From NCBI RefSeq assembly GCF_009707515.1, contig NZ_WLYI01000018.1, positions 1 to 64,000 of the forward strand: a stretch of 64,000 nucleotides of DNA, given 5' to 3'. Below the pieces are notes generated by a model. It was not told where the DNA came from, searched no databases, and saw only the letters and a program-made list of their open reading frames with translations. The translations under genes were made by a program, and so were the position numbers. Shown here one piece after another: positions 6,633 through 28,587 of this stretch (the first letter of the stretch is position 1; each line of letters opens with the position of its first letter). This DNA is from Pseudomonas karstica (GTDB taxonomy: Bacteria; Pseudomonadota; Gammaproteobacteria; Pseudomonadales; Pseudomonadaceae).

Positions 6633-7396
6633 GCCGCGAGATCCTCAAGGTTGAAAACCTGAGCATGCGCTTCGGCGGCTTGCTGGCGGTCAATGGCGTG
6701 GCCCTGACCGTGAAAGAAAAACAGGTCGTGGCGCTCATTGGTCCTAACGGCGCCGGCAAGACCACAGTGTTCAACTGCCTGACCGGTTTCTACAAGCCCA
6801 GCGGTGGCAACATCCTGCTGGACGGCCAACCGATCCAGGGCCTTGCCGGCCACGATATTGCCCGCAAGGGCGTGGTGCGCACCTTCCAGAACGTGCGGTT
6901 GTTCAAAGACATGACTGCGATCGAGAACCTGTTGATCGCCCAGCACCGTCACCTGAACACCAACTTCTTCGCAGGCCTGTTCAAGACGCCGGGGTTCCGT
7001 AAAAGCGAGCGCGAGGCCATGGAATATGCCGCGTATTGGCTGGATAAGGTCAACCTGACCGAGTTTGCCAACCGCCCGGCTGGCACTCTGGCTTACGGCC
7101 AGCAACGTCGCTTGGAAATCGCCCGCTGCATGATGACCCGCCCACGGATCCTCATGCTCGACGAACCGGCCGCAGGCCTGAATCCCAGGGAAACCGAAGA
7201 CCTCAAGGCGTTGATCGGTATGCTGCGCGAAGAACACAACGTCACCGTGTTGCTGATCGAGCACGACATGAAACTGGTCATGAGCATTTCCGACCATATC
7301 GTGGTGATCAACCAGGGCACGCCACTGGCCGACGGAACGCCGGAACAGATCCGCGATAATCCGGAAGTGATCAAAGCCTATTTGGGGGAAGCGTAA
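6629..7396 (+). CDS. braF: Branched-chain amino acid ABC transporter ATP-binding protein (LivG/BraF)
   Basis: 255-residue ABC ATPase. The Walker A is GPNGAGKTT near residue 39, the Q-loop region is [10 protein letters not shown], and the signature is the LivG form [15 protein letters not shown] rather than LSGGQ. Walker B is [13 protein letters not shown], and the switch histidine lies in [11 protein letters not shown]. It sits on the cytoplasmic face with BraG and powers uptake. It starts in ATGA overlap with braE, and braG follows one base later. Confidence 0.94.
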
Positions 7397-7397
7397 A

Positions 7398-8099
7398 ATG
7401 CTGCAATTCGAAAACGTTTCCACTTTCTACGGCAAGATCCAGGCCCTGCACGACGTCAATGTCGAAGTGCGTCAGGGCGAGATCGTCACGCTGATCGGTG
7501 CCAACGGTGCGGGCAAGTCCACCTTGCTGATGACCCTGTGCGGTTCACCCCAGGCGCACAGCGGTAGCGTGCGCTACATGGGTGAAGAACTGGTGGGCCA
7601 ACACTGCTCGCAAATCATGCGCAAGAGTATTGCCGTAGTGCCCGAGGGCCGTCGGGTATTTGCCCGCCTTACCGTGGAGGAGAACCTGGCCATGGGCGGG
7701 TTCTTCACGGACAAGGGCGATTACCAGGAACAGATGGATAAGGTGCTGCACCTGTTTCCGCGACTCAAGGAACGCTTCAACCAGCGCGGCGGCACCATGT
7801 CCGGCGGCGAACAGCAAATGCTCGCCATTGGCCGGGCACTGATGAGCAAGCCCAAGCTGTTGTTATTGGACGAGCCATCCCTGGGCCTGGCGCCGATCAT
7901 CATCCAGCAGATCTTCGACATCATCGAGCAACTGCGCAAGGACGGTGTCACTGTGTTCCTGGTGGAACAGAACGCCAACCAAGCGCTGAAAATCGCCGAT
8001 CGTGCCTACGTGCTGGAAAATGGCCGGGTAGTGATGCAGGGTACTGGTGAACAATTGCTAACCGATCCAAAAGTGCGTGAGGCGTACCTGGGAGGCTGA
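7398..8099 (+). CDS. braG: Branched-chain amino acid ABC transporter ATP-binding protein (LivF/BraG)
   Basis: 233-residue ABC ATPase of the LivF type. Walker A is GANGAGKST, the ABC signature is MSGGEQQMLAIGRALM, Walker B is LLLLDEPSLGLAP, and the switch region is FLVEQNANQAL, with the Gln typical of LivF. It is the last gene of the bra operon. REPIN array B begins about ten bases after its stop, so the array may also act at the 3' end of the transcript. Confidence 0.94.
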   Translation: MLQFENVSTFYGKIQALHDVNVEVRQGEIVTLIGANGAGKSTLLMTLCGSPQAHSGSVRYMGEELVGQHCSQIMRKSIAVVPEGRRVFARLTVEENLAMGGFFTDKGDYQEQMDKVLHLFPRLKERFNQRGGTMSGGEQQMLAIGRALMSKPKLLLLDEPSLGLAPIIIQQIFDIIEQLRKDGVTVFLVEQNANQALKIADRAYVLENGRVVMQGTGEQLLTDPKVREAYLGG

Positions 8100-21075: not shown

Positions 21076-22221
21076 TTACAGACAACCGGCCAATATTCTT
21101 ACTAACTTTTGCGCTCTTGGGTCCATCAATACATAAGGCCCTAGAGTATTAGTCACAAAACCGAAGGCTACATCATGTTCTGGATCGGCAAAACCTACCG
21201 AACCGCCAGCGCCCGGATGCCCGAAGGCCCTGGAGCCAAGGCCGAAAGTCGCATTCGGTACCTGGGGTTGATCCAACATGCAGCCCAAGCCAAACCGGGT
21301 TTGAGTCAATAAAGTTTTATCCACGCCCATACTGTGTTCACGGGTCAACTCTTCGAGCATATCGGCCTCCAGCAAACTACCGTCCAGCAAACCACTATAA
21401 AAACCCGCCAGGCTACGGGCATTACCGTGACCATTTGCCGCTGGCTGCTCCATGCGGCGCCACTCAGGTTTATTAGTGCTGGTTAGAATAGACGGTGGAT
21501 TGGTAAATGCCCGAGTAGTCATGGCCGTGGGTTCACGCATTGTTACTTGCAATAAACGCTGGGCCGCCTCATCGCCCATATTGCCCTTACCCCGGGCAAT
21601 ATGCGCAACTCGATAAAATTCTTCATCTGCCAACCCGACGTGAAAGTCCAGCCCCAATGGCCGAGCAACCCGGGCCACAATGGACTCCCCCGGTCCGCGA
21701 CCGTCAGCCCGGCGCAGCAATTCTCCTACCAACCAGCCATAGGTAATCGCGGCATAGCCATGACCTTCGCCCAATGCCCACCACGGCGCTTCGGCGGCCA
21801 GGGTATCGACCATCAACTGCCAGTCGTAAAGGGCTTCGGCGGGGAGCGTCTCGCGCAGCGCTGGCAACCCAGCCTGATGGCAAAGCAGATGGCGCAGGGT
21901 GATGGACTCTTTGCCGGCTGCGGCGAATTCCGGCCAACACTTGGCGACCGGCGCATCGAGTTGCAATTTGCCTTCAGCGACCAGTTGCAGCGCCGTGACG
22001 GCAGTAAAGGTCTTGGTGCAGGAGAACAGATTGGCAATCGTGTCGCTGTGCCAGGCTTCGGCACCATCCTTGTCGGCAGTACCGGCCCAAAGGTCGACGA
22101 CCGTTTCTCCGCCTATCTGGATGCACAACGCGGCGCCGCGCTCCTGAGGGTCATCGAACAGCGCGGCAAAGGCTTCACGCACCGCTTCGAACTTAAGCTC
22201 GTAATGACCCTGAATCTGCAC
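21076..22221 (-). CDS. Serine hydrolase, class C beta-lactamase-like esterase (EstB type)
   Basis: 381 residues of the beta-lactamase/transpeptidase fold. The catalytic S-x-x-K is SCTK (Ser67, Lys70), and a candidate catalytic Tyr is Tyr161 in ITYGWL. The C-terminal block HPGAGGSVGFADPEHDVAFGFVTN corresponds to the KTG-like box of this family. There is no signal peptide, so it is cytosolic, and family VIII esterases are the closest guess. The start is GTG at 22221 after a GAGGGGG site. It lies 84 bases after the glycoside hydrolase gene on the same strand and may be co-transcribed. Confidence 0.82.
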   Translation of the reverse strand: MQIQGHYELKFEAVREAFAALFDDPQERGAALCIQIGGETVVDLWAGTADKDGAEAWHSDTIANLFSCTKTFTAVTALQLVAEGKLQLDAPVAKCWPEFAAAGKESITLRHLLCHQAGLPALRETLPAEALYDWQLMVDTLAAEAPWWALGEGHGYAAITYGWLVGELLRRADGRGPGESIVARVARPLGLDFHVGLADEEFYRVAHIARGKGNMGDEAAQRLLQVTMREPTAMTTRAFTNPPSILTSTNKPEWRRMEQPAANGHGNARSLAGFYSGLLDGSLLEADMLEELTREHSMGVDKTLLTQTRFGLGCMLDQPQVPNATFGLGSRAFGHPGAGGSVGFADPEHDVAFGFVTNTLGPYVLMDPRAQKLVRILAGCL

Positions 22222-22305
22222 CTAAGCCCCCTCGAAAAAGTCCTGCATAAAAGTGGCGAGCATTGTTCCAGCGATTGTGGGATTTGGAAACCCGTACGCG
22301 TTGAA

Positions 22306-24669
22306 TCAATGCCCATTCCCCGAATGCCCGCCGGCATGCCCAGCCCCTGGCCCTGCGCCCTTGCCTTCATGGCCAGGCTTACCGCCTTCACCGGCGCGGC
22401 TGACGCTGCTCACCTTGGCTTTTGCGGCCTGTTTGCCCAACTGATCGATCGCCGCCAGGTTGCTTTTGCGTACGCTCTCGATGAAACCCTGGAAGGGTAC
22501 GTCGGTGATGCCCACCAAGCCGAAGTGGCCATTTTCACCGTCCAGCAGCCGCCCCGTGACAGGCTGATCGAGATACTGAAACCAATGCACACCGACAATC
22601 GACGGCTCAGCCATGGCCTGCTTGAGGAAGTTGGCGTACGCGGGCCCCCGGTCTTCTTCCCGGGCCAATTGCGTCACACCCCCCCAGAACGGGCCACGGT
22701 CGTTCGAGCCAAAGTTGAATTCGGTGATCAGCACCGGCTTATCCAGTGCCCGCAAGGCGGCGAAGTCATAACCGTCCTGAGGCTTGAGGGTGTACATGTT
22801 GAAGCTCAAGACGTCGCAATACTGCGCACAGGACACCACCGCTTCCGGGGTGCTCACGGCATAGCGCCCACCCAGTAACAGTTGGTTGGGAGCGTGCCAT
22901 TTCAGCGCATCGGAGATGGTCTTGAAGTAAGCATCGGCGAAGGTCTTCTGGAAATACTTGAAGTCCGCTTCGATTTCCGGGTGCTCTGGGCTTGGCATCG
23001 GCGGTACAAAACCCGGGTCTTCCATCAGTTCCCAAGCGGGCAAGTCAATGCCCCAGGCCCGCGACAGGCCTTCCTGGTTGCGATACTTGTCCCGTAGTTG
23101 CTTGAGAAAAGCCCTCTTGGCCGGTACGTCAGTGGTCATGCGCAAGGTGCCGTAGGCCAGGGCGTAACGGGACTTCGCGTCGTCTCCCGGACCGGCCCAG
23201 GCCAATTCATTATCGGCAAAAAAGCCGATCAGCCACGGGTCGTCACGATGGTCGCGGGCAGCAATAGCCACTGCACGTTCGGTAGCCATGGCAAAGCGTG
23301 GGTCAAACGGGTCGGGCATACCTCCCCACCAATCAGTGCCGGTGCTGATGCTGGCGTAATCGCCGACGATCGACAACGGCAAGGTGTAAGCCACGCGGTC
23401 TGCCGTTCCCAGCTCGGGAGCACTCCAGTTGCCAACGGTATTGAAGCCCCAGGCTTGCAGGCGATCCAGGGTGTGGCCGACCCAACGTTGCTGGTCAAAA
23501 CCCTCTGGCGGGCAAGGCGCAACGGGGTCGGTTTTTGTATCCTCGGCCTTGTGCGTGGCCGGCACACAGGGCTGGCCGTAGGTGCGCTGCAAGTTGGCGC
23601 CATAGAAGTCGTACCAGCGGCCGCCATAGAAGCCGCGCCCTTGGTCGGCACCGTTGCCGCCCCGGTTGTCGCCATTGCCGTAGTACTTGTCGAACGGCTC
23701 ACCGGCCTTGGGCAGCGCGGTAAACATCCATTCGCGCCCCGTCACGTAGGTCTGGTTGTTATCCGGGGCGACGGTGTTAACCCCCAGGGAATAGAACGGA
23801 TGACCTTGCGGGGTCACCAGGTACCAGCGGCCATCGCGCTTCTCGGTACGGAAAAAACCACTGGCTTCAAAGGCCGGGCCTTTATTCCATCCGCCAAACG
23901 TGTCCAGGGAAGAACGATCATGCTCGGTGAGCCAACCCTTGAGTTCTTGCTGTTCCTTGGCCGCGACGACTTTCAACTGCTCGTCACTGCTGACTTTCTC
24001 CGGCCATTTGCCCCGCGTGGACTGCCCATAGGCATCCACCAGGTCGCTATAGGCGGCCTTGAAAACCGGTTCGCTGTCCTGCACGCCGAATCGTTCCAAC
24101 AGGATGCTTTGGGCAGCATTGGGTTTGATCATCGACAGCGTGACCGACACCACCTTGCTGAGATCAATTTCTCCTGCACTGCTGCCCAGCAGCACGCGCT
24201 GGCCATCCACCATCATCGGCATCGGCGGGCCCGCCTTCATGCCCTGGCTGATTGGGGAGTTGGCGTGCAGTGGAATCAGCAGGGTCTGGGCAGGGCCTGC
24301 CGGCAGGTCGATGCGGCTGACCAGGGTCTTGCCATCGTTGCTCTGGACCTTGACGTAGAGAGTCAGCGCCCAATCCATCGCACTCTGGATACGCAAGCTC
24401 ATGGCACTGGACTGGGACCAGTCCCATGCGCCGCTATGCGGGCTGAGCACCAGGCTCGGTTCTGCCGCCGGGTTGAAGGTGATTCGGCGCAGCACTTCGC
24501 CTTCCGGGGTTTGCTCAGCATTGTATTGCGGCAAACTGGCGTCCCGGGTCGCCACGTTGACCACGTCGGTAGGCCGGACAAAGTTGAACAGCGTTTGCTG
24601 CCCGACAGGCGCGGCCAGCAACGGCGCGGCGAACAACAGGGCACAAAGAACGGGCAGCGTGCGAATCAT
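22306..24669 (-). CDS. Secreted GH50-like (agarase-like) glycoside hydrolase
   Basis: 787 residues with a Sec signal peptide (MIRTLPVLCALLFAAPLLA). The N-terminal half is beta-rich (carbohydrate-binding-like, to about residue 215). Next comes the GH-A clan TIM barrel: DGRWYLVTPQGHPFYSLGVNTV, a proposed acid/base Glu488 in FFADNELAW and a nucleophile Glu650 in VLITEFNFGS. The 162-residue spacing of the two glutamates fits GH50 agarases. A tail of about 25 residues rich in Gly and His (HEGKGAGPGAGHAGGHSGNGH) ends the protein. The substrate is unknown: agarose, another galactan, or a self-made exopolysaccharide. The esterase follows and dinG precedes. Confidence 0.75.
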   Translation of the reverse strand: MIRTLPVLCALLFAAPLLAAPVGQQTLFNFVRPTDVVNVATRDASLPQYNAEQTPEGEVLRRITFNPAAEPSLVLSPHSGAWDWSQSSAMSLRIQSAMDWALTLYVKVQSNDGKTLVSRIDLPAGPAQTLLIPLHANSPISQGMKAGPPMPMMVDGQRVLLGSSAGEIDLSKVVSVTLSMIKPNAAQSILLERFGVQDSEPVFKAAYSDLVDAYGQSTRGKWPEKVSSDEQLKVVAAKEQQELKGWLTEHDRSSLDTFGGWNKGPAFEASGFFRTEKRDGRWYLVTPQGHPFYSLGVNTVAPDNNQTYVTGREWMFTALPKAGEPFDKYYGNGDNRGGNGADQGRGFYGGRWYDFYGANLQRTYGQPCVPATHKAEDTKTDPVAPCPPEGFDQQRWVGHTLDRLQAWGFNTVGNWSAPELGTADRVAYTLPLSIVGDYASISTGTDWWGGMPDPFDPRFAMATERAVAIAARDHRDDPWLIGFFADNELAWAGPGDDAKSRYALAYGTLRMTTDVPAKRAFLKQLRDKYRNQEGLSRAWGIDLPAWELMEDPGFVPPMPSPEHPEIEADFKYFQKTFADAYFKTISDALKWHAPNQLLLGGRYAVSTPEAVVSCAQYCDVLSFNMYTLKPQDGYDFAALRALDKPVLITEFNFGSNDRGPFWGGVTQLAREEDRGPAYANFLKQAMAEPSIVGVHWFQYLDQPVTGRLLDGENGHFGLVGITDVPFQGFIESVRKSNLAAIDQLGKQAAKAKVSSVSRAGEGGKPGHEGKGAGPGAGHAGGHSGNGH

Positions 24670-24767
24670 ACGAACAAGGTTCTCCCAAGCGGCCGATGAA
24701 TGGCCTGACGACTTGAATCAGTAACAGTGAGATAGACCACGCAGCGGGCGATTTCGCCCACTGTGGT

Positions 24768-26912
24768 TCAAGATATTTCGCGGCGGAACGGCGGTAGCGC
24801 GTTAAGGATGGCTTTGCCATAGCGCTGGGTGACCAAACGGCGGTCGAGCAACGTGATGGTGCCGCGATCTTGCTCGGTACGCAGCAGGCGACCACAGGCC
24901 TGGACCAGCTTCAAGGACGCGTCTGGCACCGAGATTTCCATGAACGGATTACCGCCCCGGGCTTCGATCCATTCGGCCAATGCCGCTTCTACGGGGTCAT
25001 CCGGCACCGAGAACGGGATCTTGGCGATCACCACGTGCTCACAGTAGGCTCCGGGTAGGTCCACACCTTCGGCGAAACTTGCCAAGCCGAACAGCACACT
25101 GGAGTCACCGCCATCAACTCGCGCCTTGTGCTTGTTCAGGGTTTCCTGTTTCGACAGGTTGCCCTGGATAAACACCTGCTTGCGCCAGTCGCGGTCCAGG
25201 CCGTCAAACACGTCCTGCATCTGCTTGCGTGATGAGAACAGCACCAGGGTGCCTTTGGATCCTTCCACCAATGACGGCAGGTCACGGATGATCGCCGCCG
25301 TGTGTGCCGGCGCGTCCCGTGGGTCGGCCTTGAGGTCCGGTACCCGTAGCACGCCGGCATCAGCGTGATGGAACGGGCTCGGCACCACAGCGGTGACCGC
25401 CTTTTTCGGCAGTCCGGCACGCATGCGAAAGCGCTCGAAAGTACCCAGTGCCGTCAGCGTCGCCGAGGTGACCAGGGCACCGTAGGCCACATTCCACAGG
25501 TTGCGCCGCAGCATTTCCGCCGCCAGGATCGGGCTGGCATTGACCTCGATATCGAACAGCGCACCGCTTTCCGACAAAGTCAGCCAGCGTGCCATGGGCG
25601 GGTTGTCTTCCGGGTCTTCGGCGGTAAAGGCCGTCCACAGTTCCCAGTTGCCCTGGGAGCGAGACAACAGGCTGCCAAACAGCGGGTACCACTCTTCAGC
25701 CTGATTGCTGGCGATGCCGATATTGACCTCGCCATCCATGCCTTCCTTGAGCAGATCGGTGAGGCGGGTGAACAGGTCGGTCAAGCGGGAAAAGCCCTTC
25801 TTCAGTTCAATACCCATTTCCCGCATATGCTCGGGGATCATCCCGCCGACAAAACGATGACGCGGACGCTCACGCCCCTCCACGTCTTCGCCGGGCTTGA
25901 AGTCCGCCACTTGCTCACAAGCGCTGAACATGAACTGTTGCTGGGTCTTGATCTCACGCGCCAGCTCCGGGACCTGCTCGATGAACTTACCGAGGTCGCC
26001 GGGCAGCGGGTGCTGGGCCAGCAGCTTGGTGAGATTCTTGGCGGTGGTTTCCAGCCAATCGGCAGTGGAGCGCAGGCGGGTGTAATGGGCAAAGTGGCCG
26101 ATGGCCTTGTCCGGCAGGTGGTGACCTTCGTCGAACACGTAAAGGGTGTCGCGCGGGTCCGGCAGCACGGCGCCCCCACCCAGGGCCAGGTCTGCCAAAA
26201 CCATGTCATGGTTGGTGACAATAACGTCGACCTTGCCCATGCCCTCACGGGCCTTGTAGAAGGCGCACTGGCCGAAGTTGGGGCAATGGCGGTTGGTGCA
26301 CTGGCTGTGATCGGTGGTCAGGCGTGCCCAATCGGCATCTTCCAGGGCATTGGGCCAACTGTCGCGATCACCGTCCCATTTATTGCCGGCCAGCTTTTCA
26401 ATCATGCTGGTAAACAGCTTCTGACTGGCCTCATCCACTTCGATCTTGAAGCCTTCTTCTTCGAACAACTGGGCAGTGGCGGTTTGCGCGTGACCTTCCT
26501 GCAACAGTACGTCGAGCTTGGACAGGCACATATAGCGACCACGCCCCTTGGCCAGGGCGAAGGTGAAGCTCAGGCCGCTGTTGCGCATCAGGTCCGGCAG
26601 GTCTTTGTAGACGATCTGCTCCTGCAGGGCGACGGTGGCGGTGGCAATCACCAGCCGCTTACCGGCAGCCTTGGCAGTGGGAATCACGGCCAGGCTGTAA
26701 GCCACGGTTTTACCGGTGCCGGTGCCAGCCTCGACGGCCACGACCGCAGGGTCGCCACTGCGCCGGCCTTCGTCGTCGGTGTCGATATCCCCGAGGACCT
26801 TGGCCACTTCGGCGATCATCAGGCGCTGGCCATACCGCGGTTTCAAGCTCTTGGCTTCGAGAAAACGCGTGTAGGCGCCCTGGATCGTGGTTTTGAGTTC
26901 AGTGCTGATCAT
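24768..26912 (-). CDS. dinG: ATP-dependent DNA helicase DinG
   Basis: 714-residue superfamily 2 (XPD-like) 5'-3' helicase that unwinds D-loops, R-loops and forks. Walker A is AGTGTGKT at residues 62-69. The iron-sulphur cysteines are Cys129 (YMCLSK), Cys205, Cys210 and Cys216 (CTNRHCPNFGQC). The DEGH box is at 261-264. The C-terminal helicase motifs include LFSSRKQM and FGLASFAEGVDLPG, then QACGRLLRTEQDRGTI. The cluster residues and length agree with DinG rather than YoaA. It stands between the copD-like gene (divergent) and the glycoside hydrolase gene. Confidence 0.92.
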   Translation of the reverse strand: MISTELKTTIQGAYTRFLEAKSLKPRYGQRLMIAEVAKVLGDIDTDDEGRRSGDPAVVAVEAGTGTGKTVAYSLAVIPTAKAAGKRLVIATATVALQEQIVYKDLPDLMRNSGLSFTFALAKGRGRYMCLSKLDVLLQEGHAQTATAQLFEEEGFKIEVDEASQKLFTSMIEKLAGNKWDGDRDSWPNALEDADWARLTTDHSQCTNRHCPNFGQCAFYKAREGMGKVDVIVTNHDMVLADLALGGGAVLPDPRDTLYVFDEGHHLPDKAIGHFAHYTRLRSTADWLETTAKNLTKLLAQHPLPGDLGKFIEQVPELAREIKTQQQFMFSACEQVADFKPGEDVEGRERPRHRFVGGMIPEHMREMGIELKKGFSRLTDLFTRLTDLLKEGMDGEVNIGIASNQAEEWYPLFGSLLSRSQGNWELWTAFTAEDPEDNPPMARWLTLSESGALFDIEVNASPILAAEMLRRNLWNVAYGALVTSATLTALGTFERFRMRAGLPKKAVTAVVPSPFHHADAGVLRVPDLKADPRDAPAHTAAIIRDLPSLVEGSKGTLVLFSSRKQMQDVFDGLDRDWRKQVFIQGNLSKQETLNKHKARVDGGDSSVLFGLASFAEGVDLPGAYCEHVVIAKIPFSVPDDPVEAALAEWIEARGGNPFMEISVPDASLKLVQACGRLLRTEQDRGTITLLDRRLVTQRYGKAILNALPPFRREIS

Positions 26913-27542: not shown

Positions 27543-28301
27543 CTACAACGGCTGAACGGTCACTGAACCCGCAGGCCCCGCCACACCCGGCTGCCCTTCC
27601 AGCCCAGGCCGGCCCTTCTCGCCGCCAGCGGCGCGGTAAACCAGGCAGCCCTTGGACTGCCCGCCCTTTCCAGGTTTGCCAGCCGTGCCCGCCAAGCCAC
27701 CGGCACCACCGCCCACCCAGACCTTGATCTGCTCGCCCGGATAATCCCGAGGCAGCTCGAGCCGTACTTGCGCGCCCGCCGCACCCGACAATCCATCACC
27801 GCCATTGTCACCATTGGCGCCACGCCCGGCCGAGCCCCAGGTGCAACCCGGATCTTCGCCATTGGCACCGTCAAGGCCAGCATAACCTTGGGCCCCGGCG
27901 CCGCCACGGGCGTCCACCGACAGCTCACCGGCATTCAAGGATTGGATGCGCAACGTCAGGTCACGCCCTGGCTTGGCCGGTTTTTCGTGGGTACCGGGGG
28001 CTCCGCGTGAGGTAATTTGGCTGCCATGATCCAGCTGTGCATGGCGTACCTGCATCTGCAGCCCGGTGCCACCGGGCACGATGGCAATCCGGGCTTCGCG
28101 GCCCAGGTGCAATTCATCGACATTGACCTGGGTGACCTTGGAAGGAATCAGCAAAGTGCCATAATCCGCCACTTCCAGCCGCTCCAATTGCAATACGCTG
28201 CTGCTGGTGGGCAGGCGCATTAAAGAGTGAGTCTCGACACTGACGCTCTGGGCCATGGCCAGGGGGCTGACCAACAGGGTCAACAGACAAACCTTATGCA
28301 T
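27543..28301 (-). CDS. Secreted collagen-like Gly-rich protein
   Basis: 252 residues. The signal peptide is MHKVCLLTLLVSPLAMAQ. The first half is beta-rich (LQLERLEVADYGTLLIPSKVTQVNVDEL). The second half has many Gly-X-Y triplets (GAPGTHEKPAKPG, GGAGAQGYAGLDGANGEDPG, GEKGRPGLEGQPGVAGPAG), interrupted by a lectin-like beta segment (QVRLELPRDYPGEQIKVWVGGG). The triplets suggest a short collagen-like triple helix or loose Gly-rich loops. Two cysteines (DPGCTW and SKGCLV) may form a disulphide. The start overlaps the end of the DUF1145 gene by eight bases. The function is unknown. Confidence 0.65.
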   Translation of the reverse strand: MHKVCLLTLLVSPLAMAQSVSVETHSLMRLPTSSSVLQLERLEVADYGTLLIPSKVTQVNVDELHLGREARIAIVPGGTGLQMQVRHAQLDHGSQITSRGAPGTHEKPAKPGRDLTLRIQSLNAGELSVDARGGAGAQGYAGLDGANGEDPGCTWGSAGRGANGDNGGDGLSGAAGAQVRLELPRDYPGEQIKVWVGGGAGGLAGTAGKPGKGGQSKGCLVYRAAGGEKGRPGLEGQPGVAGPAGSVTVQPL

Positions 28302-28587
28302 GATTGGCCGCCTTCGTTTGATCAGTCGCGCGCGCGGGCCCCGCAAGGCCCTGCAAGTGGAACATGCCTACTAGCAGAATCTGCAAGCGGTCACGCCAGG
28401 GATGGACACGGTTCTTCACGCTGGCGTTGAATAACAGCAGCTCTAGCAAATGAGTCAGCAGCAACAAACTGCCCGCCAGATTGACCAACAGGTGAAACGG
28501 ATTGATCAGCGGCTTGAACAGATTGATCACCACCACGCCCCAGAACAGCAGCGTCAGAAACTTCCCCAACCCCCAAAACACCCTCAT
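28294..28587 (-). CDS. DUF1145 family small membrane protein
   Basis: 97 residues with two or three hydrophobic stretches (GLGKFLTLLFWGVVVINLFKP, then LLVNLAGSLLLLTHLLELLLF). The FWGVVVINLFKPLINPFHLLVNLAG pattern is typical of DUF1145. The ATG at 28587 is nine bases downstream of an AGGGGA site and fits better than a GTG at 28596. Its stop overlaps the start of the collagen-like gene, so the two are probably translationally coupled. The function is unknown. Confidence 0.7.
   Translation of the reverse strand: MRVFWGLGKFLTLLFWGVVVINLFKPLINPFHLLVNLAGSLLLLTHLLELLLFNASVKNRVHPWRDRLQILLVGMFHLQGLAGPARATDQTKAANHA

Follow-up and report, generated by a model that had tools for sequence, protein, structure and literature searches.

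A GH50_2-type glycoside hydrolase of Pseudomonas karstica and its co-occurrence with the cyclic glucan synthase NdvB

What would an enzyme that resembles agarases act upon in a pseudomonad? The question is raised by a gene in the window analysed here, a stretch of 64,000 nucleotides from Pseudomonas karstica (contig NZ_WLYI01000018.1). The first-pass annotation had described its product as a secreted enzyme of glycoside hydrolase family 50 (GH50), and had suggested either a galactan other than agar or the cell's own exopolysaccharide as its substrate. The P. karstica gene adds a member to a subfamily, GH50_2, whose activity class is already known. Its first characterized member, PaBglu50A of P. 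aeruginosa, was assigned to a "Pseudomonas clade", reported to be a beta-1,3-glucanase and set apart from the agarases when the subfamily was proposed (PMC11079163); the title of Yi et al. 2018, cited in the same paper, calls it an endo-beta-1,3-D-glucanase.

The encoded protein and its active site

The features of the gene and its surroundings are collected in Table 1. The plus strand of the same interval (22306-24669) contains two stops in frame 1, and comparison with three relatives gave dN/dS values (NG86) of about 0.08, 0.07 and 0.11, which indicate that the gene is under purifying selection. Promoter-like sites were not detected in a sigma-70 scan of positions 22000-25100, and no relative was found in the viral contigs scanned.

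Table 1. Positions of the GH50 gene, its parts and associated genes (coordinates of the window unless another sequence is named)
Feature	Position	Strand	Basis or remark
Exported glycoside hydrolase of family GH50 (GH50_2-type), 787 aa	22306..24669	minus	ORF (ATG at 24669, stop at 22306), Pfam, PDB-sequence match, alignment, tree
Likely signal peptide, residues 1-20	24610..24669	minus	By eye and hydropathy
N-terminal Agarase_CBM-like domain, residues 70-180	24130..24462	minus	Pfam
Catalytic barrel region, approximately residues 258-739	22453..23898	minus	Alignment to Aga50D
Point at which Aga50D 342-381 is missing, between residues 309 and 310	23742..23743	minus	Alignment, 10/10 GH50_2
Predicted acid/base Glu488 (FADNELAW), equivalent to Aga50D Glu534	23206..23208	minus	Alignment
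Predicted nucleophile Glu650 (LITEFNFG), equivalent to Aga50D Glu695	22720..22722	minus	Alignment
Gly/His-rich C-terminal tail, residues 751-787	22309..22419	minus	Conserved only in the near lineage
Serine hydrolase, beta-lactamase family (PF00144), conserved downstream neighbour	21076..22221	minus	Marks the locus
dinG-type helicase, conserved upstream neighbour	24768..26912	minus	Marks the locus; outside GH50 function
Membrane GH17 gene, 527 aa	L117:871-2454 (P. karstica contig C22)	minus	GH17 domain followed by hydrophobic segments (by eye)

The N-terminus, MIRTLPVLCALLFAAPLLA-AP, is hydrophobic and has the appearance of a Sec-type signal sequence, as judged by eye and by hydropathy; 10-residue means reach 2.67 there, and later 19-residue windows never exceed 1.21. 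Pfam recognized the Agarase_CBM domain (6.9e-8) and gave a weak match to Glyco_hydro_42, and a search against the NCBIfam profiles gave zero matches. Among sequences of solved structures, the closest was Aga50D (4bq2-4bq5; E-values of 1.8e-99 and 4.2e-99), followed by the agarases 6xj9 and 5z6p, and the match to 4bq2 extended over both the CBM-like domain and the barrel. In addition to the catalytic pair, N487, F697, R707 and E712 of the P. karstica protein align with Aga50D residues N533, F742, R752 and E757, which are named as active-site residues in PMC11079163. Taken together, the homology, the two glutamates and the four further residues identify the product, at the level of sequence, as a GH50 enzyme. 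Its catalytic domain is predicted to be a (beta/alpha)8 barrel from its homology to the crystal structures; an AlphaFold2 model, based on the protein and 39 close relatives (77-91% identity), had a pLDDT of only 44, too low to be of use. The family, the GH-A type catalytic pair and the signal peptide had all been proposed in the first-pass annotation, and each of them is borne out by these comparisons.

The Gly/His-rich tail, which had also been pointed out, is a genuine feature of the near lineage: of 116 loci from close relatives, 110 encode a protein that ends in the motif GGHxxxxH, as do 75 of the 80 named ones. It is absent from all nine aligned GH50 sequences from other genera (one from each), and for this reason is unlikely to be required for activity. 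The tail was consequently rejected as a functional part and may be a lineage-specific decoration of low complexity. A variable region is an insert in the GH50_2 barrel (approximately residues 366-389), which differs greatly in length and composition and is often rich in Cys, Pro and Ala; it is short or absent in some GH50_2 proteins and absent in five agarase-type sequences.

One difference from Aga50D concerns the end of the substrate cleft. A 40-residue segment (Aga50D 342-381) is lacking in all ten GH50_2 sequences compared and present in all five agarase-type sequences. It includes the "tunnel end block" (residues 350-375), which is reported to close the agarase tunnel and to carry Asp362 of the -2 subsite (PMC8551122). 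Without this block, the cleft of the GH50_2 enzymes would be open at its -2 end, and an endo action would be expected. The missing block alone leaves the substrate unfixed, since AgaB50, which is devoid of the 350-375 block and combines exo and endo action, is nevertheless an agarase (PMC8551122). The tunnel roof (165-176) and Trp199 are likewise absent in GH50_2, but were dropped as substrate markers because the agarase-type sequences also vary at these positions: of the five, three lack the roof and two lack Trp199.

Genomic setting and the agarase-type branch

The dinG-type helicase and the serine hydrolase flank the GH50 gene in 121 of 125 loci (a set in which some genomes were fetched twice); three of the remaining genes lie elsewhere and one is at a contig end. 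The serine hydrolase is followed by a gene for an OmpA-domain protein and by pdxH (the latter identified by eye). The conserved location in Pseudomonas that had been claimed for the gene is thus confirmed, and its description as part of a "core" region is nearly right: the gene was detected in 318 of 398 species in the genus sample (~80%). In the family sample it was present in 88 of 198 genomes, in 10 of 19 genera, while the class sample, searched at 1e-15, yielded only one positive genome in 369, that of P. karstica itself, which carries a single copy. Several groups of the GH50 tree reappear in the tree of the flanking genes, an informal comparison that fits vertical descent.

Regions around dinG from 50 GH50-negative genomes were also inspected. 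In 33 of them the gap between dinG and the serine hydrolase match was 35-274 bases, in two others it was 548 and 994 bases, and in eight the serine hydrolase was not found within the fetched piece. In the other seven (L206-L210, L212 and L225), approximately 6-7 kb of other DNA occupies the place of the GH50 gene; the one insert that was read, that of L208, resembles by eye an operon for a multisubunit cation/proton antiporter. Genome G250 retains a broken GH50 remnant (L172, ~7083-7486, minus strand) beside dinG and the serine hydrolase, and its NdvB reading frame is open over the full length. On the other side of dinG, an ORF of the window for 267 aa (27543-28346, minus strand) includes a Gly-rich, collagen-like stretch and is without a Pfam match; related ORFs (46-88% identity) occur near dinG among the listed loci of relatives.

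The GH50 gene of P. aeruginosa is, we assume, PA1046, located between dinG and an esterase gene. PA1046, annotated as a hypothetical protein, appears among the PA14 transposon mutants from a screen of sodium hypochlorite MIC (PMC10687435). From the wording of PMC11079163 and from the gene order, PaBglu50A is probably the orthologue of the P. karstica enzyme.

No agar genes and no sugar transporter or regulator were found among the ten neighbours of the GH50 gene that were scanned, and no carbohydrate cluster was evident by eye around the three GH50 genes that lie elsewhere (L123, L124 and L125). A different picture emerged from two other genomes of the order. The search of the order sample recovered GH50 in 10 of 244 genomes, eight from the Pseudomonadaceae and two with agarase-type genes, of which G1000 carries four copies and G1106 two; one of the encoded proteins aligns with Aga50D across nearly its full length. 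Of ten ORFs picked near these genes, six code for two TonB receptors, two sulfatases, a GH43/32-like hydrolase and a porphyranase, a content such as a locus for red-algal polysaccharides would have. The remaining four encode a chemotaxis receptor, a protein similar to tryptophan halogenases, a CoA-transferase and an FAD oxidoreductase. In a tree that comprised five of the six agarase-type genes (one, split over two pieces, was left out of alignment and tree), 30 GH50s from the Pseudomonadaceae were cleanly separated from the five of agar-locus type with a support of 100, where the agarase-type side consists of G1000 and G1106 genes alone; a caution applies to the long row of G409, which meets the outgroup. 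According to this tree, the Pseudomonadaceae GH50 lies outside the agarase-type branch, and both the searches and the tree place the P. karstica protein in the Pseudomonas GH50 clade.

Co-occurrence with NdvB and a membrane GH17 protein

A protein combining GH17 and GT2 domains, a type identified as the cyclic glucan synthase NdvB (PMC10237404), is encoded on the same contig in P. karstica, next to a dapE-like gene (recognized by eye); the match to GH17 is below the Pfam cut-off. The two genes are not linked in this genome, since ndvB lies ~59 kb away from GH50, which remains in its dinG neighbourhood. They are associated in their distribution. Of the 198 genomes in the family sample, searched for NdvB at 1e-100, 88 encoded both proteins, 7 NdvB alone, 103 neither and none GH50 alone; NdvB thus accompanied GH50 in 88 of 88 positive genomes, versus 7 of 110 negative ones. 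Within the genus, 80 GH50-positive genomes, picked by hand from the 318, were compared with all 80 negative genomes of the 398-species sample, and NdvB was found in 78 and 15 of them, respectively. Restriction to well-assembled genomes gave 75 of 75 versus 13 of 76; the two positive genomes that lack NdvB are represented by assemblies that are 88% and 77% complete.

Among the 15 GH50-negative genomes with NdvB, eight have the orthologous type (73-94% identity) and seven a divergent type (49-55%) that forms a single group on the tree (support 90). The P. syringae DC3000 protein is regarded as non-functional in PMC10237404, and our guess is that the divergent group corresponds to the lineage of this strain. 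Three genomes (G345, G024 and G189) encode a further NdvB-like protein (40-42% identity) beside the usual one. The occurrence of NdvB without GH50, in 7 of 110 genomes of the family sample and, as the orthologous type, in 8 of 80 of the genus sample, means that NdvB can be retained in the absence of GH50. Loss of GH50 with retention of NdvB, and in well-assembled genomes never GH50 without NdvB, is the pattern that would be shown by a hydrolase of the NdvB product, and is not expected for an enzyme directed at agar or a foreign glucan.

Shared ancestry was taken into account with a tree of DinG, the serine hydrolase and PdxH from 80 genomes chosen by their GH50 and NdvB states (dinG was found in 79). 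At least 10 changes in the state of GH50 fall on well-supported branches; the best tree has 16, and 13 for NdvB. Across 10 independent pairs with contrasting GH50 states, NdvB differed in the same way in 5.9, in the opposite way in 0 and not at all in 4.1 (means; median p 0.031). These values became 5.7, 0 and 4.3 when six long-branched rows were dropped (median p 0.031), and 5.4, 0 and 4.6 when, in addition, NdvB was made the leading gene (median p 0.0625). Single pairings ranged up to p = 0.5. The association across the tree is one-directional and of modest strength. Penicillin amidase, tried as a patchy control gene, was present in 76 of the 80 genomes and is therefore not patchy; the result says no more than that lack of GH50 does not go with a generally gene-poor genome. 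The membrane GH17 gene was rejected as a second control, as it co-occurs with NdvB itself. With both control genes unsuitable, the pair test on the tree is the only guard against shared ancestry, without an independent patchy null.

This membrane GH17 gene emerged as a third partner. Its product resembles a solved beta-1,3-glucanosyltransferase (4wtp, 6.3e-17), and its layout of domains suggests an NdvC-like protein; ndvC of Bradyrhizobium influences beta-1,6 linkages according to a title in the references of PMC3634840. Matches at 1e-50 were present in 41 of the 80 genomes. Counting only matches with E-values below 1e-100 sets aside G180, G276 and G409, whose sole matches are inside NdvB, and leaves the gene in 38 of 41 genomes with an orthologous NdvB versus 0 of 39 without one. 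It followed NdvB in 8.9 of 10 independent pairs and never opposed it (median p 0.004), and so tracks NdvB more tightly than GH50 does.

A link between ndvB and GH50 was not found in a literature search that most subscription journals lay outside, and the term GH50 has no occurrence in PMC10237404. The association of GH50 with NdvB and with the membrane GH17 gene is new relative to the literature searched.

Proposed function and comparison with known enzymes

We consider it probable, though well short of certain, that the product is a retaining GH50_2 enzyme with endo-beta-1,3-glucanase activity, which is exported, works in the periplasm and trims or recycles the NdvB glucan of the cell. The protein would leave the cytoplasm by Sec export and then, most likely, stay in the periplasm, where Glu488 as acid/base and Glu650 as nucleophile would cut beta-1,3-glucosidic bonds inside chains; a -2 end left open by the missing tunnel block would fit such endo action. 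The natural substrate would be the beta-1,3-glucan made by NdvB with its GT2 and GH17 domains, whose rings and uncyclised chains the enzyme may open or trim, or which it may recycle. We infer the site of export, the beta-1,3 specificity (from PaBglu50A alone) and the in vivo substrate. A broader proposal, on which our judgement is evenly divided, is that the enzyme serves as the dedicated hydrolase of a scattered set, comprising NdvB, the NdvC-like membrane GH17 protein and GH50_2, that would make, branch and turn over the cyclic beta-1,3-glucan of Pseudomonas, a polymer linked to the antibiotic tolerance of P. aeruginosa biofilms; GH50_2 would thereby set the level of this glucan. Losses from this set would be ordered, such that GH50 can go first and NdvB and the membrane GH17 protein go together.

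The same activity could also serve to scavenge glucan of fungal, algal or plant origin, with the enzyme secreted to the medium in the manner of a laminarinase or curdlanase. The signal sequence and the beta-1,3-glucanase activity of the tested GH50_2 enzyme (PMC11079163) suit this explanation, yet a scavenger would have no reason to occur only together with the cell's own synthase, as it does in 88 of 88 genomes of the family and 75 of 75 well-assembled ones of the genus. Moreover, the gene stands singly in a housekeeping block, where its ten neighbours provide neither a sugar transporter nor a regulator, and we regard scavenging as rather unlikely. Less probable still is an action on some other polymer of the cell, for instance a galactan-type exopolysaccharide or a different glucan of the periplasm, with NdvB co-occurring because it and GH50 are both parts of a wider envelope programme. 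Co-occurrence by itself names no substrate, and the membrane GH17 gene co-occurs as well; on the other hand, both NdvB (below the Pfam cut-off) and the membrane protein carry a GH17 domain, from a family with solved beta-1,3-glucanosyltransferases. Given this shared domain and the beta-1,3-glucanase activity of the tested relative, one polymer explains all three genes.

The possibility of a beta-agarase or galactanase, as implied by the first-pass annotation, was rejected on the grounds of branch, tunnel block and the context of neighbouring genes, and we hold it to be very improbable. The closest solved structures are indeed agarases, with E-values down to 1.8e-99, the catalytic centre is the same, and AgaB50 is an agarase that lacks the end block as well (PMC8551122). 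Nevertheless, the protein falls outside the agarase-type branch and is without the block that bears Asp362 of the -2 subsite; none of its ten neighbours is an agar gene, whereas TonB receptors, sulfatases, a GH43/32-like hydrolase and a porphyranase are found near the GH50s of G1000 and G1106; and every agarolytic GH50 is described as marine (PMC11079163). Of the substrates originally suggested, the cell's own polymer was close to the mark, but the galactan is not supported, and the NdvB beta-1,3-glucan is the most likely polymer.

The NdvB glucan is reported to sequester antibiotics in P. aeruginosa biofilms (PMC3634840), and a role in osmotic and plant interactions has been proposed for it (PMC10237404); the portions of these two papers available to us name no enzyme that degrades it. 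If GH50_2 does so, removal of its gene would offer a direct handle on the level and chain length of the glucan, a function could be assigned to an agarase-like gene that ~80% of the species sampled (318 of 398) possess, and the three scattered genes would become open to testing as one pathway.

The nearest known system is PaBglu50A, likewise a GH50 of the Pseudomonas clade, for which the text consulted gives no in vivo role; the two proteins are compared by description only, and that of P. karstica has the Gly/His tail. Fsa16295Glu of Fervidibacter sacchari, a GH50_3 beta-1,3-endoglucanase, shares the beta-1,3-glucanase activity of the family and the two catalytic glutamates, but differs in its Tat signal, its lack of the CBM-like domain and its position on a distant branch (PMC11079163). 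Enzymes of the type of Aga50D, the GH50_1 exo-beta-agarase of Saccharophagus degradans (4bq2-4bq5), are 27-31% identical to the P. karstica protein over long segments. Aga50D has the same two-domain layout, catalytic pair and N533/F742/R752/E757 set, but keeps the 342-381 segment with Asp362 of the -2 subsite, and its host degrades agar. In terms of physiology, the parallel would be with BcsZ, AlgL and PslG, periplasmic hydrolases tied to the polymer synthases of cellulose, alginate and Psl, respectively. Like them, GH50_2 would be an exported hydrolase that is kept only together with its synthase; unlike them, it belongs to another family and its gene lies outside any ndvB operon.
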